Notes under the pieces: generated by a model | The model's input: the letters and a program-made list of their open reading frames with translations, nothing else | Told to the model about the DNA's origin: nothing | Databases searched by the model: none | From: Candidatus Poribacteria bacterium | GTDB taxonomy: Bacteria; Poribacteria; WGA-4E; WGA-3G | Assembly (NCBI GenBank): GCA_022821965.1 | Contig: JAJECN010000040.1 | Span: 186,001 to 250,000, forward strand | Direction: 5' to 3' | DNA: 64,000 bases | Program-made: the position numbers and the translations under genes | Shown: one piece after another, positions 22,903-41,900 of the stretch | Numbering within the stretch: the stretch's first letter is position 1 | Layout of the letters: each line of letters begins with the position of its first letter

Positions 22903-23850
22903 TCATAAGCGGGATCTGATTGCCTGTACCAGAAGTGGGATCATCAGTTCGTGATGTCCTGTAAATGTATATCCTTTTCCACCCATCTCTGTTGGGCGTT
23001 TGACGACATTTTCTACGGGGCGATATTGTTGGTTCATGTCAAAATTGGCAGTCGTGAAGTGGGATACCGTATGCCCCAGATTCCGAGCGATCGTCAACGC
23101 CTTCAAGAAAACCTCCGGTAGAATCACAGCCGAACCTAAATTCAGGACAACGCCCCCGTCTTCCAAATCTGTTACTAACGTTGTCAATAATCGGAAATCG
23201 GTGAAACTCGCAGCGCCGATAGTTGCACCCTTCGCGCTCGGATGCTGATGGATAATATCCGTGCCAATGGCGACATGCACTGTGATTGGCACATCGTATT
23301 GGATACCGGCGGCAAGAAGACTATATGGATTGTAGGGCGCGTCCATTTCTACAAGTTGTCTGCCCAATGCTTCACCCATCCCGATATTTGTATCTGCGGC
23401 GTGCTGAATTGCCGCGTTCATCAGTTGTCCTGTTTCCTCCCACATCCCGAACTGTCCGGTCTGAATGTAGGCAGAGACATCTTCAGAGGTCTCACCGATG
23501 AGGGCTATTTCAAAGTCGTGGATACTGCTTGCGCCGTTGAAAGCAAATCCGGTAATCACTCCGCGTTTTGTCAAGTCTATTAAGAGTGGACTTAACCCAC
23601 ACTTGATGACATGTCCGCCCATCATCACGATGACCGGCTTCTCATTCTCGGATGCCGTAACGATGTCATCAACGAGTGCCAAAAAATCCTGTCCTTTAAG
23701 GATGTTCGGAAGACTCGCCAAAAACGGAGCCAAGTCTGTTTCTGATTCTGGGAGCGTCGCGAAGTCCTGAACGGAGACTTTGTTGATACGATTCTGAAGT
23801 GGATAGGTCTTCACGGAAGCCATGTCAATTGGTTTCAAGGATTTCTTCAT
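22903..23850 (-). CDS. Conserved protein, possibly deoxyhypusine-synthase-like fold
   Basis: 315 residues. ATG at 23850 preceded by AAGGACA; the 5' end overlaps the preceding O-antigen-ligase gene by 26 bp, so the two are co-translated. Strongly patterned motifs: VIVMMGGHVIKCGLSPLL, GFAFNGASSIHDFEIALIGE, VPITVHVAIGTDIIHQHPSA, VVLNLGSAVILPEVFLKA and a His-rich end GHTVSHFTTANFDM ... TFTGHHELMIPLL. These suggest an enzyme with a nucleotide-binding Rossmann-type core. Resemblance to deoxyhypusine-synthase-like proteins is from memory and weak. Function unknown. Confidence 0.55.
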   Translation of the reverse strand: MKKSLKPIDMASVKTYPLQNRINKVSVQDFATLPESETDLAPFLASLPNILKGQDFLALVDDIVTASENEKPVIVMMGGHVIKCGLSPLLIDLTKRGVITGFAFNGASSIHDFEIALIGETSEDVSAYIQTGQFGMWEETGQLMNAAIQHAADTNIGMGEALGRQLVEMDAPYNPYSLLAAGIQYDVPITVHVAIGTDIIHQHPSAKGATIGAASFTDFRLLTTLVTDLEDGGVVLNLGSAVILPEVFLKALTIARNLGHTVSHFTTANFDMNQQYRPVENVVKRPTEMGGKGYTFTGHHELMIPLLVQAIRSRL

Positions 23851-25387
23851 GTTTTTTGTCCTTAGGCAATTGTATATAAAAGATTATTCCAATAATAAAC
23901 CAAAAAAGCAATACTGTGCGTTGGTGTAGAATGTTGTCTGCGAGTCCATAAACGAGTGCAGAAATGAGAAATCCGCTTGCCCCAATAAATGTTCCTGTGC
24001 CCCAAAATCCGCTTGCCTGCCGCATAGCAAAAACCTGTTGACAGATAATTACTACCATCCACAAAAACAGCAAGAGCGAAGGAATCCCATGCTCAACGGC
24101 GATGTGCAAATAGATATTATGCGCGTGGTAAGGGATGTTATATTGCTCAGGCGGTCCATTGCGTTGATATTCATAGCGAAATCTCCCCAATCCAATGCCG
24201 GTGAGTGGATACTTCCGAATAAGTTCAAGCGAGGTTTGCCACCACTGCGGACGTTCTCCCATGAATCCCACTGGATGTTCAATCATCGTTTGGAAACGCG
24301 CCTTAATATGCTGCGGCATGACGAATAACGAGGCACTGAGAAGCAGGGCAATTATAGTAAACCCTAACAGTATACGCTTCCACAGGCTATCTACCGGTCC
24401 AAATTTCCGTAGTCTCCTCATAACGAGGTAAACACCGAGGCAAACTGTGGCGATGGTAACGCTCACCCAAACGGCACGTGTAAGGGTCAACACGAGATTC
24501 GCACTCATCATAATTACAACGACACCAAGTACTAAGGTTCCCCATATTGGAATTTTCTGTTCTGGATATTTCCGCCAACTTGCTATAAAGTAGCCTATCA
24601 CAAATGGGAGACTGAGGGCAAGGTATGCGCCTAAGTCATTTGGCATCTTGAAGGTTCCAGTGAGCCGTTGTTCAATCATGTACACCATGAGATGTGTCTC
24701 ATCTTTACGAATCGCATAGCGTCTTTGGCGCGCCGGATCATCAATCCGCCATTCGTTTGATTGTTTTGAGGGCACGAACAGTGCGGTTTGGGAGAGCGGC
24801 ACGTTGCATTCTCGCAATTCGGTGCGTAAGTCATCAGATATTTGTAAATTTGGGGCTTCGCCAGCCTCAAGCTCCTCCTGAAATTGTAACCCAATCCGTC
24901 CCATAAAATCAATCGCTAAGCGATTGTCGTTTGCGTAATACCAGAGTCCGAGCACTGAGGATATACCTGCCGCGGCAATAAAGACAATAACAACATGCCG
25001 CCACCGGGTGCCCAAGGGGCTGTGAATAACGGCATAAAAGAGTAGAACCGCCCGGAGATGTTTCCAAAAATAACCAAGGCTACTGGTGGCAGGATGTGGT
25101 GCGAGGAGCGAGGCTATCAGTGCCAATCCCAGAAACAACGCAATTGGGATATCAAGTGGTGTGCGCTGCCAACTTAGTTTCCGCTCTGAAACGATTCGTC
25201 CTACCCATCCCAATAGCACAAATGAAAGCCCGATGTTGAGGAATGCTGTCGAGTAACCGAACGGCAAGGCAAGCACAAAAATCAGGAATCCAAGGTAAAG
25301 GGCAGCGTTAAAGATTTCTACCGATGTCCACCGTAAATCTTTTAGGTGTGTAATCTGTGCCAAAAGGGGAAGTTTCAATCCTGACAT
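23825..25387 (-). CDS. O-antigen ligase/polymerase (Wzy_C) family membrane protein
   Basis: 520 residues from the ATG at 25387; a TTG 12 codons earlier is possible but lies close to a -10-like TATTAT. Ten or more membrane helices. The Wzy_C signature loop is TSLELIRKYPLTGIGLGRFRYEY followed by HNIYLHIAVEHGIPSLLLFL. The large extracytoplasmic insert at ~170-230 (LQFQEELEAGEAPNLQISD...) is distinctive. Such proteins join or polymerise glycan chains at the outer face of the inner membrane. No glycosyltransferase genes are adjacent. Co-translated with the downstream gene at 22903. Confidence 0.85.
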   Translation of the reverse strand: MSGLKLPLLAQITHLKDLRWTSVEIFNAALYLGFLIFVLALPFGYSTAFLNIGLSFVLLGWVGRIVSERKLSWQRTPLDIPIALFLGLALIASLLAPHPATSSLGYFWKHLRAVLLFYAVIHSPLGTRWRHVVIVFIAAAGISSVLGLWYYANDNRLAIDFMGRIGLQFQEELEAGEAPNLQISDDLRTELRECNVPLSQTALFVPSKQSNEWRIDDPARQRRYAIRKDETHLMVYMIEQRLTGTFKMPNDLGAYLALSLPFVIGYFIASWRKYPEQKIPIWGTLVLGVVVIMMSANLVLTLTRAVWVSVTIATVCLGVYLVMRRLRKFGPVDSLWKRILLGFTIIALLLSASLFVMPQHIKARFQTMIEHPVGFMGERPQWWQTSLELIRKYPLTGIGLGRFRYEYQRNGPPEQYNIPYHAHNIYLHIAVEHGIPSLLLFLWMVVIICQQVFAMRQASGFWGTGTFIGASGFLISALVYGLADNILHQRTVLLFWFIIGIIFYIQLPKDKKHEEILETN

Positions 25388-25592
25388 AACATAGAACGAT
25401 ACAAAAAATGCTTGAAAATTCAACGGAGATATAATACAATACCTTTTAAGAAATCCAGTGTCCGTATAGAAGTTAGGGCATTGCGTTTACCGGCTGAGGT
25501 TCTCTAATTCAGAACGTTGAATTTGTAGAATTGGTTAAGGGTTGATTAATTTTCATCTGACCGTATCTACGATCTTTAAAGGGGATTCCACC

Positions 25593-26789
25593 ATGCGCTT
25601 TACATACAACCTCATTGCTTTATTATTAGGGTTTTGTCTTATCGGATTGCTTTTCACGCCAACTACGCCGGCGTTTATTGAGCGCGAATATACGATCCGT
25701 GAAGTCCTTGATGCTTGTACGAACATCGTTTTTGGTGAAGTAAAGAGCGTTGACAAGGGGCGTTTGCGGGGCGTTGTTACCGTCGAAAAAGATGTCAAAG
25801 GGAAAAGCGAACTCAAGGAAATCAAGATGAACTTCGCTACCGGACATTACAAACGGGGTACCTCCCCAGAAAAGATGGTCCGACTCCTCAAACCTGGGAT
25901 GCCTATCATCGTTTTCTATCGTGAGCATTACGGTATAGATAGCATGTGTTTTATTGATAACACATGGTTTCAAATGCGGGCGTATCGCGGTGGATATAGT
26001 GGCTCTTGGTGGACCTTCACGCATATTGATCCGATGATGTCTCGGACCTTTGATGGCAAAACGAAGGCGTTCCAAAAGATAGTTCTTGACATGTTAGCCG
26101 GTAAAATGTGGGTTGCCGCGCCAAAAGATGCCATAAAAGTTCTCGTCCTGACGGGGAACAGCACACATCCGACATGGAGTCAAACGCCTGTTTATACCAA
26201 TACTGCGACGTATGAATATCAAGCAGTCCGTTCGGTAAAGGAGGTTGGCAAACGCTCTGTTGCCCACGAACCTACCAAAGAACATAAGTTGCCGCAACTG
26301 GAGAACGCGGATATTTTGTGGATCGGATACGAAGAAATCTCCAGTTATGGTCACTATCTCCTTTCTGGTGAAGTAGAAAAAAAGATTAAAAACTTTGTGA
26401 AAAAGGGTGGCATTGTTGTCGTTACGGGACAGGACAGTAGTGCCGAAAAGCCTTGCGGTGTCGGGTGGTTGCAAGGCAAGTTGAAGGGTGTTGAAAGTCC
26501 GCCAACCCAACATTTCGCCGTTACTGAAAAGGGCAAGTCTCTCTTCTCTATCCCGAACGTGATTACGTCTGGCAAAATCTTTATTGATGACGCGTGGGTG
26601 GACTGGGACCGGAAAGATGAAATTTTTGCAACGACCCAGGACAACAAGGAACTCGTTGTTGGCGTGAGACGGTATGGCAAGGGATTATACATCATTACCA
26701 GCCTTCGCAACGATAGCCAATATACAACTTCGATGAACAAAGCACTCATGGAAAATATCATGCATTATGCTGTCAACCAACTCAAGTAG
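25593..26789 (+). CDS. Secreted protein with C-terminal glutamine-amidotransferase-like domain, function unknown
   Basis: 398 residues from the ATG at 25593, preceded by AAAGGGGATT; an upstream in-frame ATG lacks a site. Signal peptide MRFTYNLIALLLGFCLIGLLF ending near TPA. The N-terminal ~150 residues are a beta-rich module seen as CTNIVFGEVKSVDKGRLRG ... VVTVEKDVKG. The C-terminal half (~190-398) looks like a flavodoxin/GATase1 type fold: AIKVLVLTGNST, ENADILWIGYEEIS, FVKKGGIVVVTGQDS, YGKGLYIITSLR. This recalls ThuA-like domains, but no catalytic residues can be assigned. Convergent with the phosphatase gene. Confidence 0.5.
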   Translation: MRFTYNLIALLLGFCLIGLLFTPTTPAFIEREYTIREVLDACTNIVFGEVKSVDKGRLRGVVTVEKDVKGKSELKEIKMNFATGHYKRGTSPEKMVRLLKPGMPIIVFYREHYGIDSMCFIDNTWFQMRAYRGGYSGSWWTFTHIDPMMSRTFDGKTKAFQKIVLDMLAGKMWVAAPKDAIKVLVLTGNSTHPTWSQTPVYTNTATYEYQAVRSVKEVGKRSVAHEPTKEHKLPQLENADILWIGYEEISSYGHYLLSGEVEKKIKNFVKKGGIVVVTGQDSSAEKPCGVGWLQGKLKGVESPPTQHFAVTEKGKSLFSIPNVITSGKIFIDDAWVDWDRKDEIFATTQDNKELVVGVRRYGKGLYIITSLRNDSQYTTSMNKALMENIMHYAVNQLK

Positions 26790-26814
26790 GAGATTTTTAA
26801 CGGACAATTCGTAT

Positions 26815-28020
26815 CTATAGGAATTTCGCCACAACCAGCGTAATGTCATCATTGGCACTTTCGTCTTGTTGGTGTGCCTGAAGATCAGACAGAATCTCCA
26901 TCTTTATCTCTTCGGGGGACAAATGGCGTTTTTGTGAGATGAGTGCTTTGAAACGTTCAAATCCGTACATTTCGGCGTTAGGATTGAACGCTTCGGTGAT
27001 GCCGTCTGAATAAAGCACTAATAAATCTCCGGGATACCACTCAATCTCAGTGCTGTAATATTGCGTCGGTGTCTCGGACATTGAGATACCGACGGGTAGA
27101 AACGAAGATTCTAACTCAAGTAGGTTGCCATTTTCATCGTTAGTGCTGTTCTGCTCCGCGCGATAGAGAAGCATCTGTGGGTGACCAGCATTGGCGAATT
27201 CCAACCGATTGTCTGGGTGAATGATCAGATAACAACAGGTCATGTAGATAAATGCTTGCGCGTCCTCTTCTGTGACTCGGGTAATGGCTTTCATGACTTC
27301 TGATACAGAAGCGTCAAAGCGGATCTGCGTTTGCAAACAACTTTTGGTCATCGCTGCGACCATTGCTGAATGATAACCGTGCCCCATGACATCACCGAGG
27401 AAAATCGCAACACTGTTGTCGGAGAGTTCGAGATAGTCGTAATAATCGCCTCCCACGGTGTTCGCTGGTCGGCAATATCCGGCGGAATGCACACACGGGT
27501 GCGCAATTTCTTTGTCTGGTAGGAGAGACTTTTGGACTTCAGCGGCAAGCCGCATTGATTCTTCCTGTGCGATCTCTTTGCGGATGGCGCTCATCTGAAT
27601 TTCAAGGTCGCGTCGGATTTTATCGTTCAAAACCCGAAACATCCCACTGCCAATCCTCGGTTCTCGCGCCATAGCGTTGTAGAAATCGTGTCTGGTGATT
27701 CTCAGGAATTGCGTAGGTTTCACCGTTTTTACTGTGGCACTTCGCGGTTTGTTGTCAATCAAGGCGATTTCCCCGAGGCAGTACCCTTTCTCATCGAAGA
27801 ACAACACCTCTGTCCCAGCCTTGATAATGCTGACTTCACCATCCACCAACAGATAGAGAGAATCGCCTTCGTCCCCCTCCTCAAATAGTGTTGAATCAGC
27901 GGGATAAGCAACTTCGCTCGTAATGTGACAGATCGCTTTTAATTCGGCTTGTGGGAGTTCTGCAAAGAGTTCCGTCTTTTTTAAAAATTGTAACTTATCT
28001 TCTTCTGCTAACATTGTCAA
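26815..28020 (-). CDS. Cyclic-nucleotide-binding SpoIIE/PP2C-type serine phosphatase
   Basis: 401 residues, two domains. N-terminal cNMP-binding domain at ~10-130: LFEEGDEGDSLYLLVDGEVSI, LGEIALIDNKPRSATV (phosphate-binding cassette GEIA...RSATV, close to the cAMP type). C-terminal SpoIIE/RsbU phosphatase at ~165-400: VGGDYYDYLEL, IFLGDVMGHGYHSAMVAAM, FANAGHPQMLLYR, LLVLYSDGITEAFN, DDITLVVAKF, with metal-binding Asp in GGDYYD, GDVMGH, SDG and DD. It should dephosphorylate a Ser-phosphorylated partner-switching protein in response to a cyclic nucleotide. The CYTH protein at 21219 is a possible source of cAMP. Confidence 0.9.
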   Translation of the reverse strand: MTMLAEEDKLQFLKKTELFAELPQAELKAICHITSEVAYPADSTLFEEGDEGDSLYLLVDGEVSIIKAGTEVLFFDEKGYCLGEIALIDNKPRSATVKTVKPTQFLRITRHDFYNAMAREPRIGSGMFRVLNDKIRRDLEIQMSAIRKEIAQEESMRLAAEVQKSLLPDKEIAHPCVHSAGYCRPANTVGGDYYDYLELSDNSVAIFLGDVMGHGYHSAMVAAMTKSCLQTQIRFDASVSEVMKAITRVTEEDAQAFIYMTCCYLIIHPDNRLEFANAGHPQMLLYRAEQNSTNDENGNLLELESSFLPVGISMSETPTQYYSTEIEWYPGDLLVLYSDGITEAFNPNAEMYGFERFKALISQKRHLSPEEIKMEILSDLQAHQQDESANDDITLVVAKFL

Positions 28021-28229: not shown

Positions 28230-31200
28230 ATGTCAATAACTGATTTTTTTCGGGGGAAAGTTTTGTTCGTTACCGGTGGCACCGCATTTTTGGGGCAACC
28301 GATGGTGGCGAAAATTTTGACCACACTTCCCGATGTTGAAAAAATTTATCTGCTCATCCGAAGCCGGACGGATACCGCTGGGAAACACATTTCTGCTCAG
28401 GAACGCTTAGAAAACGAACTTCTCACCTCGGACGTTTTTGCCTCCCTTCGGCACTTGCATGGTGCAAATTTTGATGCATGGGCGAAGCAGAAACTGACTG
28501 CTGTCGAGGGTGAACTTACCCATGAGCACCTTGGATTCAACGATCTTGAGTATCAACAACTTCAGGACGAAGTCGAGGTCTGTATTAACATCGCTGGTCT
28601 TGTGCAATTCGATCCACCTTTTGATGATTCTCTCTGGGGGAATGCGCTCGCTGCCAGACACGTTGTCAACTTCGCAAAGGGCTGTCGGGATGCTGTGTTT
28701 CTCCATGTTTCAACAGCGTACGTGTGTGGCGACAATCCGGGGCGAGTTCTCGAAGAACTGCCGCTGCCATACCTACAGTACGCGGCACAACATCGAGAAA
28801 AGACCGGAATGGCTATTCCAGAGACGCTCTCCGAGGAAATCGAAGGGCTGCTTTCTTTGAGTGCTGCGATCCGTGCTGAAGCCGATTCACCCGAAAATCT
28901 GGCGCGCTTTCAGCAGGAAGCGGAACAGGAAAGAAAAGGAGCGGGATCGCGTAAAGGGCTTGAGGCGCACGTTGAAGAATTGAAGGCAGAATGGCTTGAG
29001 AATCGTTTGGTCGAAGAGGGGTTGAGGCATGCCCGTTCACGCGGGTGGAACGATACCTATACCTACATGAAATTCCTTGCCGAACAAGTGGTTATGGAAT
29101 TGCGGGGTGAGCTACCAACGGCTATTGTACGCCCCTCAATTATCGAAAGCAGCTTCGATGAACCTGAACCCGGTTGGCTCGGTGGATTTCGGATGTCTGA
29201 GCCTCTGATTGTCGGTTTTGGCAAAGGACGACTGCCCGATTTTCCTGCTGATCCAGACATAATTCTCGATATTGTCCCCGTCGATTTTGTTGTGAACGCT
29301 ATGCTGGCAGCTGCCGAAGCAACAGCACGACGCGGTGGTGTTGAGGTATATCACGTTGCGACGGGAACACAGAATCCTCTCTATTTCCGGGATATTTTTG
29401 AGGCGACTTACGAGTATTTCACTGAATACCCGATGTTGGAAGATGGGAAGCCGATCCCTGTACCGATCTGGAAATATCCGAGTTTAGAGGAGTTTCAACG
29501 CAAATTAGATAGCCGGATGCGTTTGGCGGATCTCGCCATTTGGACGCTTGGTAAACTCCCAATACGCGCTGCGAAGCGGAAGCGCCGTCAGCTTGCCCTT
29601 AAACAGAGCGGTATCAAGACACTCCTGCATTACATCAGAATCTATGCCCCTTACACGCGGACGAACTTTGAATTTGAAACGGAAAAGACGCGCGGGCTTT
29701 ACGATGCACTTTCACCGACAGAACAGCAGCGTTTTAACTTCGATGTCTCGCGGATCCACTGGAAGCGATATTTTCAAGAGATTCACATTCCCGGTATCAA
29801 ACGGCATGTGTTGAAAATTGAGGATGGCGCGGCGGACGATGTGGAGGCACCTTCCTCTACAAAACAGGGAAAGACGAGTTCACAAGATGAATCGGAGGAG
29901 TCTGCTGCGTCCCCTGAATGGATCGACCCGAAAACAATCGTAGATCTGATTAAGATACAAGCATCTCGCATTCCAGATAGAATTGCCCTGCAGATGGCAA
30001 ACGAGGACGGGTGGGAAGAGTACACTTATGCGGAGACCTATACGTTGTCGCGTCAAGTCGCTTGGCAGCTATGGAAGAGCGGTTTGCGCAAGGATGACCG
30101 GGTGGTCCTTGTCTCTGAAAATCAGCCTGAATGGTGTATTGTCTACCTCGCCGCTGTCCAGATTGGTGCTGCTGTCGTGCCTCTTGACGCGCAAACACCC
30201 ACCCACGAAATTTTAGCCATCACTGCGTTTACGGCTGCGAAATCAATTTTGGCATCTGAAAGCGTATTGGAAAAATTAGGTGTGGTGTTATCAACGTCGG
30301 AAGTGCTTTTACAGAACATCAATAAGAACTGCGAGATTGTGGGTGCCGACCGCTCAGAAGACCAAACCTCAACCCCTGATATTCCAGCCGATTTCCCGAA
30401 TGTAGAGGTTTCTCCGGACACCGTTGCATCAATTATCTTCACCATGGGTACGACTGTGGAGGCAAAAGGTGCAATGCTCACGCACGGTGGTTTTATTTCC
30501 AACGTGCAAGCGGTGGCAAAAGCACTCCCACCAACAGATACAGAGCGAATTCTGTCAGCACTCCCGTTGTATCACGCCTTGAGTTTCTCATGCAGTCTGT
30601 TGATGGCACTTTACAGTGGTACAACGGCAATCTATGTCAATGCGCTCCGCCCTACAACGCTTTTAAAGACAATGCGTGAGGCGAAGACGACAGCCTTTAT
30701 CGGTGTCCCGCGTCTTTTTCAGATGCTCCAAGGCACGATTGAGCGGCAAGCGACGAGAGAAGACACACCGGGTGAGACATTGGCGGAAAAAGCACAGGCT
30801 GTTATGGGTGGACAGATTCGAGTTCTTGTGAGCGGTGGTGCCTCGCTCTCCGATGCGATTTACGATGGATTTCAAAAGTTCGGAATGGTGCTTTACCAAG
30901 GCTATGGGATGACGGAAACGGCACCTGTATTGAGTGTCAATCCGTATCTAAAAAGCAAACGCGGCTCGGTGGGACCAGCAGTGGAGGGTGTGGAACTTCA
31001 GATTGAAAATCCGGACAGTGAAGGCATCGGAGAAATCATCGCTAAGGGACCGAGTACGATGAAGGGCTACTATCGGAACCCTGATGCCACAGAGAAGGCT
31101 ATCCGCGATGGATGGCTCTATACAGGCGATTTGGGGTATATGGACGCAGATGGTTATCTCTATCTCACCGGACATTGCAAGGACATTATTGTTCCTGCCT

Positions 31201-32537
31201 CTGGGAAAAATATCTATCCTGTCGAACTGGAAGCACTCTATCGGGATAACCCGGCTATCTCCGAAATATGTGTTATTGGCATTCCATATCAAGATGGATC
31301 GGATACGGCTGTCCACGCGGTGATTGTGCCAGCAACATCCGACGAAGCAACAAAGACAGAGATTCACAACCACCTCCAAGCGCGGGCGAAGCAGCTGCCG
31401 AGTTATCAGCAATTTCATAAATCTCATTTATGGGACAATCCGCTACTAAAGGGTGTGGATGGCACGATAGATCGCCAAAGTCTAAGATGCAGCTTGGAGG
31501 CGCATCTTAAAAATATGGAAGACCTTCAGGAGGCTTCAGAAACGGATGTAGAAGGTGCAGCACCAAGAGAAGACATACCGGAAGAGATCCTCTCTACCCT
31601 CGCACGGTTAGCGCGCATGCCAGCACACCAGATTCAGCCGGAAAGTCGTTTGGATACCGATCTGGGGCTTGACTCACTTACACGACTTGACCTGTTGTTA
31701 GTGCTTGAATCCAGACTCGGTGGAACAATTCCAGACGCGCTTCTTGCCAATTTGGAGTCCGTTGGCGATGTCGTTAAGTTAATTGAGACCTTTCCCACAA
31801 GGGCTGCGGCGGAAACAGATGGCTTTCATGAAGACAAGAAACCGGAACTTAGACAGGTGCCGCGGTGGTATGCTCGCGCCTTCCGCTCTGTGATTACCGG
31901 CATCTATAGACGTTATTTTTCGTTGAAGTGTTATGGGCTTGAACATATCCCGCAAGGTAAACCTTATATTATTATGCCGAATCACACAAGTCATCTTGAT
32001 ACACTGACAGTGATTTCTGCCCTCGGAACGAAGGCGTATCAACTTTGGACGCTCGCCGCGCGGGATTATTGGTTTGCTACCCGTCTCCAAGGCTGGTTTG
32101 CTCAAACGTGCCTCAACGCACTTCCGATAGAGCGGGAAGGCAATTTCACCGAATTCCTACAAGACCTCCGGGCAGCGAATGAAGTGATGGTGCAAAATAA
32201 CGGCTTGCTGATCTTTCCTGAGGGGACACGCTCGCTTAATGGTGAACTTCAGCCTTTCAAGCCCGGGGTGCTCAGCTTGCTCATCTACGGGCCCGATGTT
32301 CCGGTTATACCGACTTACATTGATGGGACGTATCACGCATTACCGAAGGGGCGTAACTTGCCCAAGAAATACCCTGTTCGTATCGTTTTTGGGGAGCCGC
32401 TTACTTTTCCGCGTAAGCACTGCGAAAGCGAAGCTGAAACATCAATTGACCCCGACAAATACCAAGAATTTTTGGAATTGGCACAAAACCGCGTCGCAGA
32501 ACTTGGGGAAACACTGAGGGGACAGGAAGACGCTTAG
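28230..32537 (+). CDS. Four-domain fusion: acyl reductase, AMP-ligase, ACP, acyltransferase
   Basis: 1435 residues. (1) Residues ~1-500, NAD(P)-dependent fatty-acyl reductase of Male_sterility/NAD_binding_4 type: LFVTGGTAFLGQPMV (GxxxxxG), HVSTAYVCG, and YTYMK as the YxxxK active site. (2) ~560-1090, AMP-binding ligase: FTMGTTVEAKGAMLTH, YQGYGMTETAPVL, YTGDLGYMDADGY. (3) ~1110-1180, acyl carrier protein with the phosphopantetheine serine in DLGLDSLTRLDL. (4) ~1200-1430, PlsC acyltransferase with NHTSHLD and FPEGTRS. It probably activates a fatty acid, loads the ACP, and reduces and transfers acyl or alkyl groups. Ether lipid or wax-like lipid synthesis is the natural reading. Myxobacterial ElbD is a comparable multidomain enzyme as I recall it. 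Confidence 0.85.
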   Translation: MSITDFFRGKVLFVTGGTAFLGQPMVAKILTTLPDVEKIYLLIRSRTDTAGKHISAQERLENELLTSDVFASLRHLHGANFDAWAKQKLTAVEGELTHEHLGFNDLEYQQLQDEVEVCINIAGLVQFDPPFDDSLWGNALAARHVVNFAKGCRDAVFLHVSTAYVCGDNPGRVLEELPLPYLQYAAQHREKTGMAIPETLSEEIEGLLSLSAAIRAEADSPENLARFQQEAEQERKGAGSRKGLEAHVEELKAEWLENRLVEEGLRHARSRGWNDTYTYMKFLAEQVVMELRGELPTAIVRPSIIESSFDEPEPGWLGGFRMSEPLIVGFGKGRLPDFPADPDIILDIVPVDFVVNAMLAAAEATARRGGVEVYHVATGTQNPLYFRDIFEATYEYFTEYPMLEDGKPIPVPIWKYPSLEEFQRKLDSRMRLADLAIWTLGKLPIRAAKRKRRQLALKQSGIKTLLHYIRIYAPYTRTNFEFETEKTRGLYDALSPTEQQRFNFDVSRIHWKRYFQEIHIPGIKRHVLKIEDGAADDVEAPSSTKQGKTSSQDESEESAASPEWIDPKTIVDLIKIQASRIPDRIALQMANEDGWEEYTYAETYTLSRQVAWQLWKSGLRKDDRVVLVSENQPEWCIVYLAAVQIGAAVVPLDAQTPTHEILAITAFTAAKSILASESVLEKLGVVLSTSEVLLQNINKNCEIVGADRSEDQTSTPDIPADFPNVEVSPDTVASIIFTMGTTVEAKGAMLTHGGFISNVQAVAKALPPTDTERILSALPLYHALSFSCSLLMALYSGTTAIYVNALRPTTLLKTMREAKTTAFIGVPRLFQMLQGTIERQATREDTPGETLAEKAQAVMGGQIRVLVSGGASLSDAIYDGFQKFGMVLYQGYGMTETAPVLSVNPYLKSKRGSVGPAVEGVELQIENPDSEGIGEIIAKGPSTMKGYYRNPDATEKAIRDGWLYTGDLGYMDADGYLYLTGHCKDIIVPASGKNIYPVELEALYRDNPAISEICVIGIPYQDGSDTAVHAVIVPATSDEATKTEIHNHLQARAKQLPSYQQFHKSHLWDNPLLKGVDGTIDRQSLRCSLEAHLKNMEDLQEASETDVEGAAPREDIPEEILSTLARLARMPAHQIQPESRLDTDLGLDSLTRLDLLLVLESRLGGTIPDALLANLESVGDVVKLIETFPTRAAAETDGFHEDKKPELRQVPRWYARAFRSVITGIYRRYFSLKCYGLEHIPQGKPYIIMPNHTSHLDTLTVISALGTKAYQLWTLAARDYWFATRLQGWFAQTCLNALPIEREGNFTEFLQDLRAANEVMVQNNGLLIFPEGTRSLNGELQPFKPGVLSLLIYGPDVPVIPTYIDGTYHALPKGRNLPKKYPVRIVFGEPLTFPRKHCESEAETSIDPDKYQEFLELAQNRVAELGETLRGQEDA

Positions 32538-32548
32538 GAAGTCTTATT

Positions 32549-33265
32549 ATGTCGGATCCGAACTCGAAACTTTTAAAAGCAAGTTTTGGCTTGCAAGCTA
32601 CGCCAAAAACAACCGCATTCTTTGATGTAGATGGCACCCTGTTGAAGTCCACGATTGTGCATTACTACATCTGGATGCGCACTGCAGAGATGCCATTCCT
32701 GCTTAAACAGTTGTGGCTCATCGGTTTTCTCCCGAAAATTGTTTATTACCTGATTTTGGATAGGGTGAGTCGCCCGCGTTTCAATCAGGTGTTTTATCGG
32801 AACTATCGTGGGATGAATGTTGAACGGATTAAAGGATTGTCTGCCGAAATGTTTGAGGCTTACCTTCGCCCGAAAATCTTTTCCGAGGCGGTATCCCAAA
32901 TTCAGGAACACAAGGAGCAAGGGACAGCCGTGGCTCTCGTAACGGGATCGCTTGATTTTATTGTCCAACCGATTGCGGACTATCTCACGATTGATTTCGT
33001 ACTGGCACCGCAACTTCGTGAAGAGGACGGACGGTTTACCGGTGAGCTGACGACCGATCCGCTCATCGGAGAGGAGAAGGCAAAAGCGATCCGAACTTAT
33101 GCTGAGCAACATGAAATTTCGCTGGAGGAGAGTTATGCGTACGGCGATAGCCAATCCGATCTACCTATGTTGGAATGCGTCGGAAATCCTGTCGTTGTGA
33201 ATCCAGGGAAAGCACTCCGCGAGAAAGCACTCGCTTCTGGTTGGGAGATGCACGAGTGGCTATAG
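32549..33265 (+). CDS. HAD-IB family phosphatase (SerB-like)
   Basis: 238 residues, 11 bp behind the megasynthase and surely co-transcribed. HAD motifs: FFDVDGTLL (nucleophile DxDGT), VTGSLDFIVQPIA (motif II), a Lys in GEEKAKAI (motif III) and YGDSQSDLPML (motif IV). The hydrophobic cap (EMPFLLKQLWLIGFLPKIVYYLIL) suggests membrane association. This HAD-IB group often accompanies PlsC acyltransferases; it may dephosphorylate a lysophosphatidate-like intermediate. Substrate is inferred from context only. Confidence 0.85.
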   Translation: MSDPNSKLLKASFGLQATPKTTAFFDVDGTLLKSTIVHYYIWMRTAEMPFLLKQLWLIGFLPKIVYYLILDRVSRPRFNQVFYRNYRGMNVERIKGLSAEMFEAYLRPKIFSEAVSQIQEHKEQGTAVALVTGSLDFIVQPIADYLTIDFVLAPQLREEDGRFTGELTTDPLIGEEKAKAIRTYAEQHEISLEESYAYGDSQSDLPMLECVGNPVVVNPGKALREKALASGWEMHEWL

Positions 33266-34496: not shown

Positions 34497-35738
34497 TTAA
34501 GGTCCGCTATTGACAAGCTCTTCTTCATCAAGAGTAAGGAGAGAGAGTCCGTAATCTCCCATCAGATACCAGAATTCTTCGCGTGGTACACCTGCCAGAC
34601 GTGCTGCCAGGCCGCTGCTGAGTTCGTCGTTTCCATAATACTTCATTCCCAAAGCGATTCGCGCATCTTTATCAATTTCAAACGGTTCGCTCCGCGGTGT
34701 CAACAACGTTACAATCTCTTTCGGCAAACGACTCCCGATCTTCTCCTCAAAGGCCGCAATGCTCCCGTGGGTATTGTGAAACGCAGCGGCGACATCCACT
34801 TCTTGTAGGAGCGCAGCTGTCAAGTCGGTCTTCGCTTCTTCCCAACCTTTCGTCAGCAACCATGCCTCACCCCTTGTGTAATAAGATTCGGGGACCTTTG
34901 GTCTGAGTTTTAGTGCCTCGGTATAATCCGCAATTGCGCTGTCTAACTCGGCTTTGGCGCGATACGCGTTGCCCCGATGCGTGTACGCCTCCACAAGTTC
35001 TGAATTGATCTCTATGGCTTTGTCATAATCTGCTATCGCCTTGTCCAATTCGTTTTTGTCGTAGTAAGCCTGCCCCCGATTGAGGTATGCTTCGGCAAAT
35101 TCTGGGTTGCAGGCGATTGCCTTACTATGATCTTCAATCGCCTTGTCTATGTCGCCCTGTTCGTTATAGATGAGTCCGCGGTAGGTATAGGGCTCAGCGA
35201 ATTCTGGGTTGAGTTCTATGGCTTTGTTATAATCTTCAACCGCCTTGTCAACCTCGCCTTTATCACGGTAAGCTTGACCGCGCCCCGTCCAAGCCTGTGC
35301 AAACTCTGGATCCAGTGCTATCGCCTTGTTATAGTCTTCAATCGCCTGGGCTACGTCCCCTTTGTTGTGGTAGGTTATACCGCGTTCTTTATATCTATCG
35401 GCAGCCTCTTCGGGTTTGAGATGTATCGCCGTGCTAAAGTCCTGGATGGATTTCTCAAAAACCAGCAGATTGCGGTAAGCCATCCCGCGTCCATAGTAGG
35501 CAAATGCATCGTCAGGCGTGAGACTTATGACTTTGCTAAAGTCATCGACTGCGCGGTAAAACTTGCCTTTATAGTAGTAAGCTACGCCGCGATTCGTATA
35601 GGCAAAGACATCCTCTGGATTGTGTTCTATTACTTTCGTAAAGTCCACAATGGAACGCTCATAATCTGCTTTTTTGCTTTGAGTGAACCGGTGCTTGTAA
35701 TACGCCTCGGCACGTTTTTGATTGTATTCTTTTGTCAT
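34497..35738 (-). CDS. TPR protein fused to a C-terminal UPF0175 antitoxin domain
   Basis: 413 residues. Nine tetratricopeptide repeats at 1-315, each near the consensus (e.g. FAEPYTYRGLIYNEQGDIDKA). A linker, FHNTHGSIAAFEEKIG, leads into LPKEIVTLL, then ARIALGMKYYGNDELSSGLA and ARLAGVPREEFWYLM and GDYGLSLLTLDEEEL. That last part (~338-410) follows the UPF0175 pattern: LPeEia.LL, AlelYregkiSlgkAA, elaGlsreeFlelL, G..ipl.yd.eel. UPF0175 proteins are antitoxins of DUF3368 PIN toxins, and the next gene is a DUF3368 protein. The TPR array is not usual for that family. ATG at 35738 with a modest GAGAAG site. Confidence 0.8.
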   Translation of the reverse strand: MTKEYNQKRAEAYYKHRFTQSKKADYERSIVDFTKVIEHNPEDVFAYTNRGVAYYYKGKFYRAVDDFSKVISLTPDDAFAYYGRGMAYRNLLVFEKSIQDFSTAIHLKPEEAADRYKERGITYHNKGDVAQAIEDYNKAIALDPEFAQAWTGRGQAYRDKGEVDKAVEDYNKAIELNPEFAEPYTYRGLIYNEQGDIDKAIEDHSKAIACNPEFAEAYLNRGQAYYDKNELDKAIADYDKAIEINSELVEAYTHRGNAYRAKAELDSAIADYTEALKLRPKVPESYYTRGEAWLLTKGWEEAKTDLTAALLQEVDVAAAFHNTHGSIAAFEEKIGSRLPKEIVTLLTPRSEPFEIDKDARIALGMKYYGNDELSSGLAARLAGVPREEFWYLMGDYGLSLLTLDEEELVNSGP

Positions 35739-35889: not shown

Positions 35890-38745
35890 CTATTGCGGTG
35901 TTAGCAGTTCAGCGATGTCCTCCGGCAACTGAATACCGGTTTTCTGCTCAAAGTCTGCAATGCTTGCGTAGTCGTTATGGAATAACGCGATGATATCCGC
36001 GCCTATATCTTTCGCAGTGGTAAGGTCTGATTTGGCTTTCTCCCATTCCTGCAGATGTAACCATGCCTCACTGCGATTGCAATAGGCTACACCATCTTCT
36101 GGGTCCAGTTCTATTGCCCTTGTATAGTCTTCAATAGCGCGATTGGTCTCACCCTTTTCATAGTAAGCTACACCACGATTGTTGTAGACACTGGCATCTT
36201 TTAAATTCATTGCTATTGCTTTGTTATAGTTTTCGATAGCGTTGTCATACTCACGTTTTGTTCCAAAAGCAAAGCCGCGATTGTAGTATACCTCGGCAAA
36301 ATCTGGTTTAAGTTCTATCGCTTTGTTATAGTCCTTAATAGCCTTATCAACCTCGCCTTTTTTGCCATAGACGTTACCACGATTATGATAGAACACGCTA
36401 TCCTTTGGATTCAGTTCTATCGCTTTACTAAGGTCTTGAAGAGTAAGATCGAGATATCCTTTTTTGTAGTAAACCGCGCTGCGATTGTTATAGGTGTTAG
36501 CATCTTTTGAATTCAGTTGTATTGCCATGTCGAAGTCTTTGATAGCGTTATCAAGTTCCCCTTTTTTGTCGTAGGCAATACCTCGACTCTGATAGGCTTC
36601 AGCATAGTCACGTTTAAATTCTATTGCTGCGCTAAAGTCTTTGATGGCATGGTCAATTTCATCCTTTTTATCGTAAGCATTACCGCGGTTACGGTAGGCT
36701 TCAGCATAATCAGGTTTCAGTTCTATGGCTTTTGTATAGTCTTTGATAGCTATATCAAATTCACCTTTTCCTCCATGAGCACTGCCCCGATTGTGATAGG
36801 AGAAAGCGTTACCAGGTTTAAGTTTCATTGCCGTATCAAAGTCCTTGATGGCTTTATCAAGTTCACCTTTTTCTCCGTAAAAAATGCCACGAGTAATATA
36901 CGCTGCGTCATAATCAGGTTTCAGTTCTATTGTTTTAGTATGGTCTTTAATAGCTTTGTCAACATCGCCTTTTTTGCCGTGAAGATTGCCACGACTGTAA
37001 TAGGCTTCAGCATAATTAGGATTGAGTTCAGTTGCTGTGGTATAATCCTTAATCGCGCGGTCAGCCTTGTCTATGTCATTATAAGCGTTACCACGAATGT
37101 AGTGGATTTCAGCATCATTTGGATTTAGTTTTATTGCCGTGGTAAAGTCATTGATTCCTCGGTCAAAATCTCCTTTTCTGCAGTACGCCATGCCACGGCC
37201 CCTGTAGACTTTGGCATCATTTAGATTCAATTGTATCGCAGCAGTAAAATCAGCAATCGCTTGGTCAGTGTTTTCTTTCGTCAGATAAGCACCACCACGG
37301 TTGTAATGAGCACCTGCATGATTAGGTTCAAGTTCTATTGCTTTATCGCAGTCTTTAATAACAAGATCAACCTCGCCTTTGTTACCATAGGCAGCTCCGC
37401 GATTATAGTATATCTCAGGAAAACATAGCTCTCGTTTTATTACCTCATTATAGTTATCAATTGCTCGATCGGGTTCACCGTTTAGGTTGTAAGCCAACCC
37501 ACGATTGTTGTAGCCTAAGGCATCATCTGGATTCAGTGCTATTGCTTTGTTATAGTTTTTAATTGCTCGCTCATATTGACCTTTGTGATGGTAAGCCACC
37601 CCGCGATTGATATAGGCATTGGCAAAATCTGGATTCAGTGCTATTGCTTTGTTATAATCCTTGATTGCCCGATCAAAATCAAGTTTGTTCGCATAAACAA
37701 GTCCGCGATTGTTGTAGGTACCAGGATCGCGTGGACTTAATTCAATTGATGTTGTGAAATCTTTGATAGCTTTCGTATGTTTACCGGTACTGCCGTAGGT
37801 AGCACCACGATTGTTATATATGCCAGCATGGTGTGGATTCAGAACAGATGCTTTATTATAATTTTCTATAGCTATTTCAAACTCATTTTGGAGATAGTAT
37901 GCAGTACCACGGTTGCAATAGGCTTCAACATAAACTGGATGCAATTCTATCGCTTTGTTAAAATCTGCGATGGCAAGATCGTATGCTCTCTTTTTAGCAT
38001 GAATGATTCCACGGTTATTGTAAGCGGCAGATGATTTAGGGACAAGGGTTATCACATTGTCATAGTCTTCAATTGCCTTCTCATAATTTTCTGTTCTCTC
38101 ATAAGCAATCCCACGATTATTATAGGCATCAGTGTAGCACGAGTTCAGTTCAATAGCACGCGAGTACGCCACAATAGCTTGGTCTATTTGCCTTAGTGTT
38201 AGCAAGAAATTGCCCTGTTTGAACGCGAGTTCCGCCATGGTTTGCAACTGTATTTTGTGGACAACTTCTCGGATGCCTTCCACTACACTTTGCCAACCTT
38301 TACTTCTGGGGTTCCATTCGTTAAGAGGTCTCCCTTCGGCAGGTAAAGCTTGAAAGTCGCTAAGTTTTTGAGATTCCCATTCACTAAGGAATGAGTTTTC
38401 AGCAGACAAAGCTTGGACATTGCTCAATTTATAATTTTTCCAATCGCAATCTTCAAGAATAATCAAGATAGGGGTTATGTTTTTTTCTAAGACTAATGCC
38501 AATTCTTCATTACAAGTTTTAGAAGCCAGGCTCTCAGAGGAAACGAGATAAAGCCATATATCTGAATCGGGTAGGTTAGTAGAAAAAATTTCTTCACGCC
38601 ATTTGTCACCTGGAATGATTTCATTGTCGTGCCAGGGGTCGATTAAACCCTCGCGCTTCATTGGTTCAAGGCATGTGAGCAGTTTATTCTTTGCTTTCTT
38701 ATTTTTATGTGAATATGTAATGAATCCTTTTAGAGGCTTGCTCAC
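35890..38745 (-). CDS. TIR-domain protein with about 21 TPRs
   Basis: 951 residues from the GTG at 38745, which has GGAGGAGAG upstream; a TTG six codons before would overlap that site. TIR domain at ~1-155: GFITYSHKNK (strand A), IDPWHDNEIIPGDKW (BB-loop region), IWLYLVSSESLAS, then CNEELALVLEK carrying the Glu where bacterial TIR NADases have their catalytic residue. Roughly 21 TPRs follow to ~905. The tail IIALFHNDYASIADFEQKTG, IQLPEDIAELLTPQ mirrors the linker of the TPR-UPF0175 protein. TIR proteins with repeat arrays act as NAD-depleting defence effectors or signalling scaffolds. Own promoter at 38784. Confidence 0.85.
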   Translation of the reverse strand: MSKPLKGFITYSHKNKKAKNKLLTCLEPMKREGLIDPWHDNEIIPGDKWREEIFSTNLPDSDIWLYLVSSESLASKTCNEELALVLEKNITPILIILEDCDWKNYKLSNVQALSAENSFLSEWESQKLSDFQALPAEGRPLNEWNPRSKGWQSVVEGIREVVHKIQLQTMAELAFKQGNFLLTLRQIDQAIVAYSRAIELNSCYTDAYNNRGIAYERTENYEKAIEDYDNVITLVPKSSAAYNNRGIIHAKKRAYDLAIADFNKAIELHPVYVEAYCNRGTAYYLQNEFEIAIENYNKASVLNPHHAGIYNNRGATYGSTGKHTKAIKDFTTSIELSPRDPGTYNNRGLVYANKLDFDRAIKDYNKAIALNPDFANAYINRGVAYHHKGQYERAIKNYNKAIALNPDDALGYNNRGLAYNLNGEPDRAIDNYNEVIKRELCFPEIYYNRGAAYGNKGEVDLVIKDCDKAIELEPNHAGAHYNRGGAYLTKENTDQAIADFTAAIQLNLNDAKVYRGRGMAYCRKGDFDRGINDFTTAIKLNPNDAEIHYIRGNAYNDIDKADRAIKDYTTATELNPNYAEAYYSRGNLHGKKGDVDKAIKDHTKTIELKPDYDAAYITRGIFYGEKGELDKAIKDFDTAMKLKPGNAFSYHNRGSAHGGKGEFDIAIKDYTKAIELKPDYAEAYRNRGNAYDKKDEIDHAIKDFSAAIEFKRDYAEAYQSRGIAYDKKGELDNAIKDFDMAIQLNSKDANTYNNRSAVYYKKGYLDLTLQDLSKAIELNPKDSVFYHNRGNVYGKKGEVDKAIKDYNKAIELKPDFAEVYYNRGFAFGTKREYDNAIENYNKAIAMNLKDASVYNNRGVAYYEKGETNRAIEDYTRAIELDPEDGVAYCNRSEAWLHLQEWEKAKSDLTTAKDIGADIIALFHNDYASIADFEQKTGIQLPEDIAELLTPQ

Positions 38746-38783
38746 GACTTCTCTCCTCCGCAATGCGATTTACTTGACGGTAA

Positions 38784-38920: not shown

Positions 38921-41900
38921 TTACTGCGCCGCTTCCTCTACAATAGCAATTTCTTCTGCTGTTAAATTATACAAGGCATACACGCGTTCATCAATCTCTT
39001 GCTCCAAATCAGCAGTATTTGCATCCGAATCCGCAGATTTCACCTCAAGGATCTGGTTGACAATCTTAATGATTCCAGTCTGTTGCTCATAAGCAACTAC
39101 CGGTATAGGAAATTCTTTCACGTAATTGTTAATCCAACGACTTGTCCCCATGCCGCTTGTCTCTGCAACAAGGCTCAGATAAAAACGAATTGTACTTGAA
39201 TTTAAGATGCCGAGAAGAAATTTTGCGTCTATATCTGAAGGCGGTAATAAGAAATATGCAGAATTTAGGAGATAGATTTCATCGTTACAGAGCGAAAATC
39301 GCCCTGAATCTGATAATTCAATCCATACAATTTTTTCTTTTTTGAAGTCATCATAGAAGGAGCAAGCTCTTAGATTGGTCCAGTGTTGCCCTTGTGCACC
39401 ACGATTTTTGAACTTATCCCCAAATGAATCCAAATATTCATATATATCAGGATAATCTTTTCCTACATTAACTCCGTTTTTAGTCAATAAAACGTACTGT
39501 TTCGGTAAAGTGTAACTGTAGCGAGAAATATCTCTGCCTCTCAAAATGGGTTTTATGATTTCGGTATTGATAGGATTTTTCTCACAAAACTCTCGTTTTT
39601 GATCCTCGTCTATAAGAAACGCTTCATTGCTGCCAGTTGCAATACCAAGTCTTATTTTAGTGTTCAACTCTTCAAGGGTTTTTCCTGATGACTCCAATTT
39701 CTTTTGAAGTTCAACAAGTTTTGGTTCTGCAAGATTCCACGACTTTGAATCAAAGTACACTTGAGGATAACTAAAGCCGTTGGCTCTTACAAAGTCCTCA
39801 AAACTATTACCTGAAAAAGGGGAATTAACAACAATACAAAAATCATCAGAGGAATTTGTCGGTTTACGAGACACAATTATCGAAACGTTAACAATAGCAC
39901 TCTCGAAAACCTGTGAGTCCTCAATATTTAACATTCTGATCAGAATGTTTTTACTTTGAAGCAGATTTCGGATTGGTGCTCCATATTCCGCTCTCAAGTA
40001 TGAATTCGAGGTAATGAAACTGAGGATGCCGCCTTCATTTTGTAGTCCTATTGCTTTCTCAATGAAATAGCAATAGATATCCGCAAAGGGTTGGTAAGAC
40101 TGATAATCATTCTTAATTTTCGCTCTAAATTGCTTTGGAATCTTATCATGGCTAATGTACGGTGGGTTGCCGATTACCACATCGAACCCGTCTGTGATAC
40201 CGAACATCCATTCTGGGTCAAAGAAATCCGCTGCAGCGTTTTGGTCGTAAGGATCCCATCCCGCGATCTTCTCAGTCGTCTCACTCGGAAATCCGTCCTG
40301 TTGCAGCAACGCGCTGATCTCGGCGCGCAGGTCTGCATCCTGTTTTCGGTAGCGTTCCTTGGTGCGCGGGGTGCGTGCAGTGAAATGTCGGCGGCGCACC
40401 TCTTCCAATGCCTTCTCTTTGCTGTCTATCTCTGGGTTGCGAAAGGTCATCTGTGCCGGTTTCTCCACACCGAGGAGCGTATTGGCAGCGACGAACTTCG
40501 TCTCTAAATTTGGCAACGGACGCACGCCTCTATTTTCACGCGTATCGTCGATTTTCTGCTCCACAATCAGCGAGATAAAGAAGCGGAGTTTGGCGATCTG
40601 TGTGGCGATGGGTTGGATGTCCACACCGTAGATGCAGTTCTCTATAAGATAGAGTTTTCTGCCGTAGTCGAGTTCGTTGCGTTCAAACGCCTCATTGATG
40701 TTTTCAATTTCGCCTTCTAATTCGTCAATGGTGCTTTCTCGGATAACGCTGTCGTCAATTTTCTCTGCCTCTGTGATGGTGTTTTGAACCCTGTCGATTT
40801 GCCGTTGTCGCCACTGTGCGTTGCGAGGGTCGAGTTTGCTGAGCAGAAAGACGAGTTTGTGGAGGACACCCATCGGGAAGGCACCGGAACCGCACGCTGG
40901 GTCGAGGATCTTGAGGGTGTCAATGGCAGTGATGAGATGTTCCACTTCGGCATCGGTGAAGTGGTGGGGTTCGTCGTTATAGGTGAGGAGATGGCGGAGT
41001 TTGGTTTCTATGTTACGGCACAACGGAGTGTGCCTACTACTTTTTTTGAGGTAGGCGATGAGGGATTCGTCTACCATGTAGTTGACGACCTCGCGCGGGG
41101 TATAGAAAGAGCCGGTCTGTTTACGCGCAGTCGTGCCGGTTTCGGGATTGTAGGCAGCGAGCAGATTTTCAAATACCTGTCCGAGCAACTCGGGATCCAA
41201 TGCGACTTCTTGTTCTATCGGCGTGTTCTCAGCAATCGTGAACTTGTAGCGGTTGAGAATGTGGATTAAGCCGCGTACAGTATATCGGCTGTTCTTGGTG
41301 TCATAGACGGCATTGAGATTTACCGCTTGGGGTTCGGAGAAGAAGAGTTCATTTGGGACAGAAAGCGGGTTATCCGATCTGTCGGAGAAGCCGTCTACAC
41401 GCAGAATTGTTTTTGCGTCGTCTGGATCGGGTTTGTCTAAACATTCAAACAAACCGCCATTGAGGAACGGGATTGACGCAAATAGACGCAATGCCACGTC
41501 TGGATCCTTGAAATACCGTTTGTAGCGATACAGCGATGTGATGTTATAGTGCTGCCGTCCCTCACCTCGGAACTTGCGATTGTTCGGTTTTTCTGGTGTG
41601 TTCATCTCCTGGTTCAGCGTTGCGAAAAACAGGTTTTGGAGGATTGCCTTGTAGTAGGTGCTTTCTTGGGCATCGAAACTCGTCAGGAGTTCAGAGATGT
41701 CCTCTTCGGCAAAAAGCACGTTCGGCACGAGGTCTTTCTCCTTGAGAAACCAGACGAAGATGAGCCGCGTAATCAGGCGGATGACACATGTGGCATTGCG
41801 GACAGATGCATCGTCCCCGGCATCGGTTGAACCCCGCTGTCCCCCCTTATCAAGACGGAATGTCACCTGCTCGACCGCCCAGAAATACCAATCGGCGATC

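Follow-up and report, generated by a model that had tools for sequence, protein, structure and literature searches.

A HAD phosphatase beside a poribacterial elbD-type megasynthase: a candidate AGPS-independent lipid module

Among the genomes surveyed here that carry an elbD-type megasynthase gene, one HAD phosphatase occurs almost only where AGPS is missing, a distribution that suggests a place for this phosphatase in an alternative ether-type-lipid route. The two genes lie side by side in the window, by which we mean the whole 64,000-nucleotide stretch of Candidatus Poribacteria DNA under analysis. We propose that they form an AGPS-independent ElbB/ElbD-type lipid module whose products are derived from fatty alcohols and are probably alkyl-ether glycerolipids, with the HAD as the module's phosphatase; we regard this reading as evenly poised. 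A wider claim is advanced more tentatively, and on balance we lean somewhat against it: that the ElbB-type HAD and AGPS are alternative partners of ElbD, the HAD being needed where AGPS is absent; that this gives a second, AGPS-independent route to fatty-alcohol-derived (ether) glycerolipids; and that the poribacterial ligase has become independent of the lysine used in adenylation.

The megasynthase gene and its surroundings

The gene pair and its domains are laid out as follows, with the evidence for each feature in brackets.

28230..32537, + strand: elbD-type gene, 1435 aa, FAR - acyl-AMP ligase - ACP - PlsC (ORF, Pfam, collinear homologues)
28269..29303, + strand: NAD_binding_4 reductase, aa 14-358, with the TGGTAFLG nucleotide motif, S161, Y277 and K281 (Pfam, 8.4e-58)
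29616..29816, + strand: FAR_C / Sterile domain, aa 463-529 (Pfam, 1.5e-14; 54.3 bits against a cut-off of 35.4)
29958..31073, + strand: AMP-binding core, aa 577-948, with A3 Lys746, A5 Glu896 and A7 Asp967 (Pfam, 7e-74)
31224..31427, + strand: AMP-binding_C lid, aa 999-1066 (Pfam, 4.9e-05; marginal, 24.6 bits against a cut-off of 24.5)
31464..31466, + strand: Thr1079 codon at A10, in GTIDR where ligases have GKxxR with the adenylation lysine (alignment)
31584..31784, + strand: PP-binding acyl/peptidyl carrier, aa 1119-1185, with Ser1149 in LGLDSL (Pfam, 3e-09)
31923..32321, + strand: PlsC-type Acyltransferase, aa 1232-1364, with NHTSHLD and FPEGTRS motifs (Pfam, 5.6e-22)
32549..33265, + strand: HAD-IB phosphatase gene, 238 aa, with DVDGT, TGS, K177 and GDSQSD motifs (Pfam, TIGR01490, motifs)

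Every domain of the 1435-residue protein scored above its curated Pfam cut-off. The original prediction of a single chain in the order R-A-ACP-PlsC, with a HAD gene 11 bp later, agrees with the open reading frames and the Pfam matches, save that it omitted the FAR_C domain. This domain points to a reductase of the alcohol-forming kind, and the FAR region as a whole matches the fatty acyl-CoA reductase 7eoz (phmmer, 4e-84). Catalytic positions were counted in an alignment of 81 ElbD copies, 62 of them poribacterial, and each of the 70 rows that span S161, Y277 and K281 keeps all three. Because the FAR and FAR_C domains occur together and these three residues stand in every covering copy, a fatty alcohol is a well-supported candidate intermediate of the ElbD-type enzyme. 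Elsewhere in the chain, the carrier serine never varies among the 81 copies, and 79 of them retain the acyltransferase His and Asp. Two Gemmatimonadota-type copies (L130 and L131) have a degenerate acyltransferase NHxxxxD motif, reading SRPGPAA and SGTLDFS.

A search for the four-domain order, as the original prediction had advised, returned collinear homologues in most of the related genomes searched. Since the chain is collinear and conserved in these genomes, and the HAD gene follows on the same strand in most, its architecture is not a chance assembly. Among poribacterial loci with room downstream, nearly all have the HAD after elbD in the same orientation, the exception being the L103/L105/L108 lineage. 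In named records, the close relatives of the chain all come from Candidatus Poribacteria; identity to poribacterial relatives is 65-87% in a nearer group and 43-52% in deeper groups. Distant full-length relatives (33-41%) come from Latescibacterota, Acidobacteriota, Planctomycetota, Verrucomicrobiota, Gemmatimonadota and Armatimonadota. One scan of genome contigs gave no Myxococcota locus among its matches; a search of plasmids for ElbD gave partial matches only, and viral contigs gave one unrelated ligase. In about a dozen poribacterial loci, as assembled, the FAR open reading frame is separate from, and still adjacent to, a ligase-ACP-acyltransferase frame, and we infer from this fission that the FAR works, or can work, as a polypeptide of its own. 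The loci noted as split are L024, L026, L038, L056, L065, L066, L091, L094, L097, L098, L100, L104 and L113.

The neighbors of the elbD-HAD pair are SpoIIE/cNMP, TPR and O-antigen ligase genes. Upstream of elbD (window 22903-28020) lie a Wzy_C O-antigen-ligase gene, a gene for a 415-aa unknown protein and a cNMP-binding/SpoIIE phosphatase gene, a set that is syntenic in L021 and L088. On the minus strand, 34497-35738 encodes a TPR protein with a C-terminal UPF0175 domain, 35890-38763 a 957-aa protein in which about 19 TPR repeats come after a TIR domain, and 38921-42595 a 1224-aa Eco57I/TaqI_C type restriction-modification methylase adjoining the TIR-TPR gene. The TIR-TPR and TPR-UPF0175 genes, in a low-GC stretch, are possibly defensive or regulatory. 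Scans for promoters and terminators gave about what shuffled sequence would be expected to give.

Alternation of HAD and AGPS among elbD genomes

In the deep-branching poribacterium L105, the gene immediately after elbD encodes a 584-aa AGPS (1.7e-147 to a solved AGPS, with the motif SHHHGVGK). This protein was the query in an AGPS survey of 40 genomes of the window's class, and the HAD was surveyed by profile; a nucleotide pattern for the HHHG motif of AGPS, which matched in many genomes and whose match in the window's own genome had no Pfam support, was given up in favor of the protein search. True AGPS was found in 3 of the 40 (G025, G028 and G030), all bearing elbD, and these hold only a distinct, weaker HAD paralogue (about 110-140 bits) that is present in most genomes of the class. 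The ortholog-grade HAD (337-409 bits) is present in 35 of the 38 elbD genomes of the class, all of them without AGPS, and the profile found no HAD in G035 and G039, class genomes without elbD.

A similar alternation is seen in 19 elbD genomes of other phyla: 10 carry the HAD without AGPS, 8 AGPS without the HAD, 1 (G045) carries both and none lacks both. These genomes were picked up through conserved peptides in common with the query, so the sample is not random; outside Poribacteria, the HAD was called by score (mostly 197-273 bits), and a number of the genes lie away from elbD. The total over 57 elbD genomes is 45 with the HAD only, 11 with AGPS only, 1 with both and 0 with neither. The HHHG motif is absent from two of the AGPS calls, one of which was tested and matched Dictyostelium AGPS at 3.8e-148. 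The FAD oxidase of G045 is AGPS-like (3.6e-96), and the HAD-bearing G026, which might be a second exception, encodes a short FAD oxidase that falls between AGPS and lactate dehydrogenase in type. Beyond these counts, the L174, L175 and L176 loci hold a HAD ortholog unlinked to elbD and then, on the same strand, a zinc-type (MDR) alcohol dehydrogenase gene. In the AGPS-bearing poribacteria, elbD is followed at L103:6754-9029 by a formyltransferase-domain gene and then a squalene-hopene-cyclase-like gene (domains checked), and the gene sizes after elbD in L108 match this pair.

How much of this pattern is independent of kinship? On the ElbD tree, the HAD and AGPS states change repeatedly, and it yields six independent pairs that contrast in AGPS. 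The HAD behaves as expected in five of the pairs, one is a tie and none runs the opposite way (sign test, p=0.0625). A Fisher test over 31 rows gives 1.4e-7, a value that ignores kinship. Phylogenetically independent support for the alternation is modest. The alternation recurs in elbD-bearing genomes from several phyla, which suggests that the HAD works together with ElbD, and natural contrast pairs exist within the Planctomycetota (L115/L122 and L123/L128).

The window's genome (5.69 Mb in 62 contigs, 95% complete) has the HAD and lacks AGPS: there was no match to the true AGPS query at 1e-30. Its four FAD-oxidase_C genes were considered as AGPS and rejected, being of D-lactate dehydrogenase or glycolate-oxidase types, with GEHG in three of the four.

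A proposed route and competing explanations

In the route that we posit, acyl chains held on the built-in carrier protein would be reduced by the FAR to a fatty alcohol, possibly by way of an aldehyde, and the PlsC domain would acylate an acceptor of the glycerol-phosphate or DHAP type. In a later step, the HAD would take the phosphate off an intermediate of the ElbD route; the original prediction that it processes the phosphate head is a reasonable one. The end product would most likely be an alkyl-ether glycerolipid, as for Myxococcus xanthus ElbD, a precedent by analogy that favors an ether. Where AGPS is present, it would exchange the acyl for an alkyl chain on the phosphorylated backbone, and the phosphatase would not be needed; in the HAD genomes, either the ether would arise by a different step or the product is of another kind. 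Substrates, the order of steps and ether formation in the ElbD-HAD module are thus all proposed by inference. We know of no HAD chemistry that makes an ether bond, and since AGPS is also absent, the ether-forming step is left without an assigned enzyme.

Other lipid genes of the window's genome bear on this scheme. The only strong FAR domain is ElbD's own. A standalone PlsC adjoins the cytidylate kinase gene, where it presumably serves ordinary phospholipids, and there is one other acyltransferase-domain protein, so that ElbD's acyltransferase is not the genome's sole one. DUF2229 (PF09989), which we take to be the marker of the anaerobic plasmalogen reductase (PlsA/Ger type), had no match in the genome, and its control was positive in 4 genomes. 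The original prediction had named fatty alcohols or ether/plasmalogen-type lipids as products, and it is supported in part: the fatty-alcohol intermediate has held up, an ether is still a proposal and a plasmalogen end product is left unsupported. Searches of the genome for Lipid_desat (a desaturase family) and WS_DGAT (the wax-ester synthase family) came back empty, as did the control for each, so that neither result is proof of absence.

The ether itself might be dispensed with. The FAR would then free a fatty alcohol, and the acyltransferase and HAD would convert (lyso)phosphatidic acid to acylglycerol, with free alcohol, alcohol esters or neutral lipid as the output; we judge this unlikely, and still deserving of weight. 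In plants, GPAT4/6/8 offer an analogy, in that a HAD phosphatase paired with an acyltransferase yields acylglycerols. The absence of AGPS and DUF2229 is in keeping with such an outcome, and the HAD/AGPS alternation would then separate two different products. Moreover, elbD does not guarantee ether lipids, as homologues occur in the cultured genus Pontiella, in which no ether lipids are detectable (PMC11868695). The empty WS_DGAT search counts against alcohol esters, although weakly given its empty control; a further objection is that the M. xanthus enzyme, whose operon also contains a HAD gene, supports AGPS-independent ether lipids (PMC9131029).

A separate issue is how the carrier is loaded. 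In the window's ligase domain, A3, A5 and A7 are kept, the A10 Lys is replaced by Thr, and the A8 Arg is replaced by His, as it is in 50 of the 81 rows. Over the 62 poribacterial rows, the A10 column holds 13 residue types, with Lys in only 3 rows, while neither A5 Glu nor A7 Asp varies across the full 81. Most ElbD copies from Poribacteria, Latescibacterota, Gemmatimonadota and Armatimonadota (L053-L132) have another residue in place of the A10 lysine, and all seven Planctomycetota/Verrucomicrobiota relatives retain it; on the tree, the trait requires four changes. Some copies among L053-L132 have Arg in place of the A3 Lys. Two acyl-AMP ligases of the window's own genome retain the A10 Lys (LKLKR and GKSDK). 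The A10 and A8 lysines stabilize the two half-reactions (PMC11253843), and from the residues present, adenylation in poribacterial ElbD may be impaired or achieved differently. Because the A10 lysine is missing from most poribacterial A domains, loading of the carrier is in question. The ligase domain could be non-adenylating, with the carrier charged in trans or by the fatty acid synthase and the megasynthase reducing or transferring preactivated chains. The freedom of A10 beside invariant A5, A7 and carrier residues, the A8 change and the intact ligases of the same genome all speak for this explanation. We nonetheless consider it doubtful, given that ACS and ACP activity has been demonstrated for M. 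xanthus ElbD, whatever residue that enzyme has at A10 (PMC9131029), and that another lysine could take over. Such a ligase can, in any case, be accommodated within the AGPS-independent ElbB/ElbD-type module.

Could the HAD instead be an ordinary metabolite phosphatase, of the histidinol- or phosphoserine-phosphatase type, that merely shares a transcript with elbD? Relatives of both types belong to the HAD-IB families. The 238-aa protein matches Pfam HAD at 8.3e-38 and HAD-IB TIGR01490 with 151 bits (cut-off, 98.3). Its AlphaFold model (pLDDT 89) has an unassigned Bordetella HAD, 3fvv, as its nearest solved structure and SerB structures after it, and the original description of the enzyme as SerB-like is accurate at the level of the fold. 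A membrane anchor was considered and rejected, as the maximum Kyte-Doolittle average is 1.39 and there is no membrane segment, features that suit a soluble-metabolite role. Set against these points, the protein falls well short of the equivalog cut-offs for histidinol-phosphatase and SerB, and most genomes hold the separate paralogue of about 110-140 bits. Furthermore, the HAD adjoins ElbD in four phyla (Poribacteria, L107 of the Latescibacterota, L111 of the Planctomycetota and L117 of the Verrucomicrobiota), and its presence tracks elbD without AGPS. On this evidence, an ordinary phosphatase is improbable.

Finally, carboxylic acid reductases have the order A-ACP-R, and although the ligase and carrier part of the chain matches one of them (5msc) and AMP-ligase, carrier and reductase chemistry is common to both, the opposite order (that of ElbD being common to its full-length relatives), the FAR_C domain, which 5msc lacks, and the attached acyltransferase with intact motifs, likewise foreign to 5msc, make an enzyme releasing only aldehydes or alcohols very improbable, and on domain order and the acyltransferase we rejected this identity.

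Comparison with known systems

The AGPS-independent ElbB/ElbD-type module has its closest published counterpart in the elbA-E operon of M. xanthus (MIBiG BGC0000871), whose ElbD, given as ABF88003.1 in PMC11868695, is described in a review as FAR1-like, ACS, ACP and AGPAT-like acyltransferase domains (PMC9131029). By this description, its domain order equals that of the window's protein, and the HAD gene elbB belongs to the same operon, as the window's HAD lies beside elbD. The comparison that the original prediction drew with ElbD as a multidomain ether-lipid enzyme proved sound: in elbD mutants, alkyl- and vinyl-ether lipids fall sharply, with most of the ether lipid gone (PMC9131029). In the same account, mutants lacking the AGPS homologue MXAN_1676 are only slightly affected, and the severity of elbD loss relative to this means that an AGPS-independent ElbD route exists in M. 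xanthus. The review also reports that ACS and ACP, and not FAR or acyltransferase, activity was shown in vitro; that the elbB phenotype is attributed to polar effects on elbD; that elbA insertions are without effect; and that ElbD's AGPS-independent ether-lipid formation and the role of ElbB are unresolved (PMC9131029). The two loci differ in that elbA, elbC and elbE have no counterparts beside the window's elbD, which is flanked by SpoIIE-type and TPR genes; a definition by architecture makes no demand for the elbA and elbE SDR genes. AGPS and CarF both occur in M. xanthus, whereas the window's genome is without AGPS.

A second comparison is with the elbD-plus-AGPS genomes, such as L105, whose megasynthases are 43-46% identical to the window's and whose FAR is expected to supply the fatty alcohol. 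These genomes have AGPS, directly after elbD in the case of L105, and lack the HAD ortholog, the opposite of what is seen in the window's genome. A more remote likeness is a FAR-less, ElbD-like ligase-ACP-acyltransferase in Fusobacterium vincentii (NZ_CP084075.1, 1158532-1160595), in which the A, ACP and AT domains match residues 594-1287 of the query at 28% identity and no reductase was matched. No gene is listed under that match, and the 2.1-Mb record, filed among plasmids, is chromosome-like.

The nearest setting is that of sponge symbionts. A sponge metagenome study describes, in the parts consulted, nine cluster families of elbD architecture from Poribacteria and Acidobacteriota, reports flanking hydrolases near elbD homologues and cites an earlier poribacterial homologue (PMC9426513). 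Compared by description, these families share phylum, architecture and sponge setting with the window's gene, and those parts of the study give no account of the HAD/AGPS alternation or the loss of the A10 Lys (PMC9426513). The ElbD-HAD module would be a candidate bacterial source of sponge ether lipids. Taken together, the elbD architecture is already known in kind and in phylum, and the HAD/AGPS alternation and the poribacterial loss of the A10 Lys go beyond the literature consulted for comparison.
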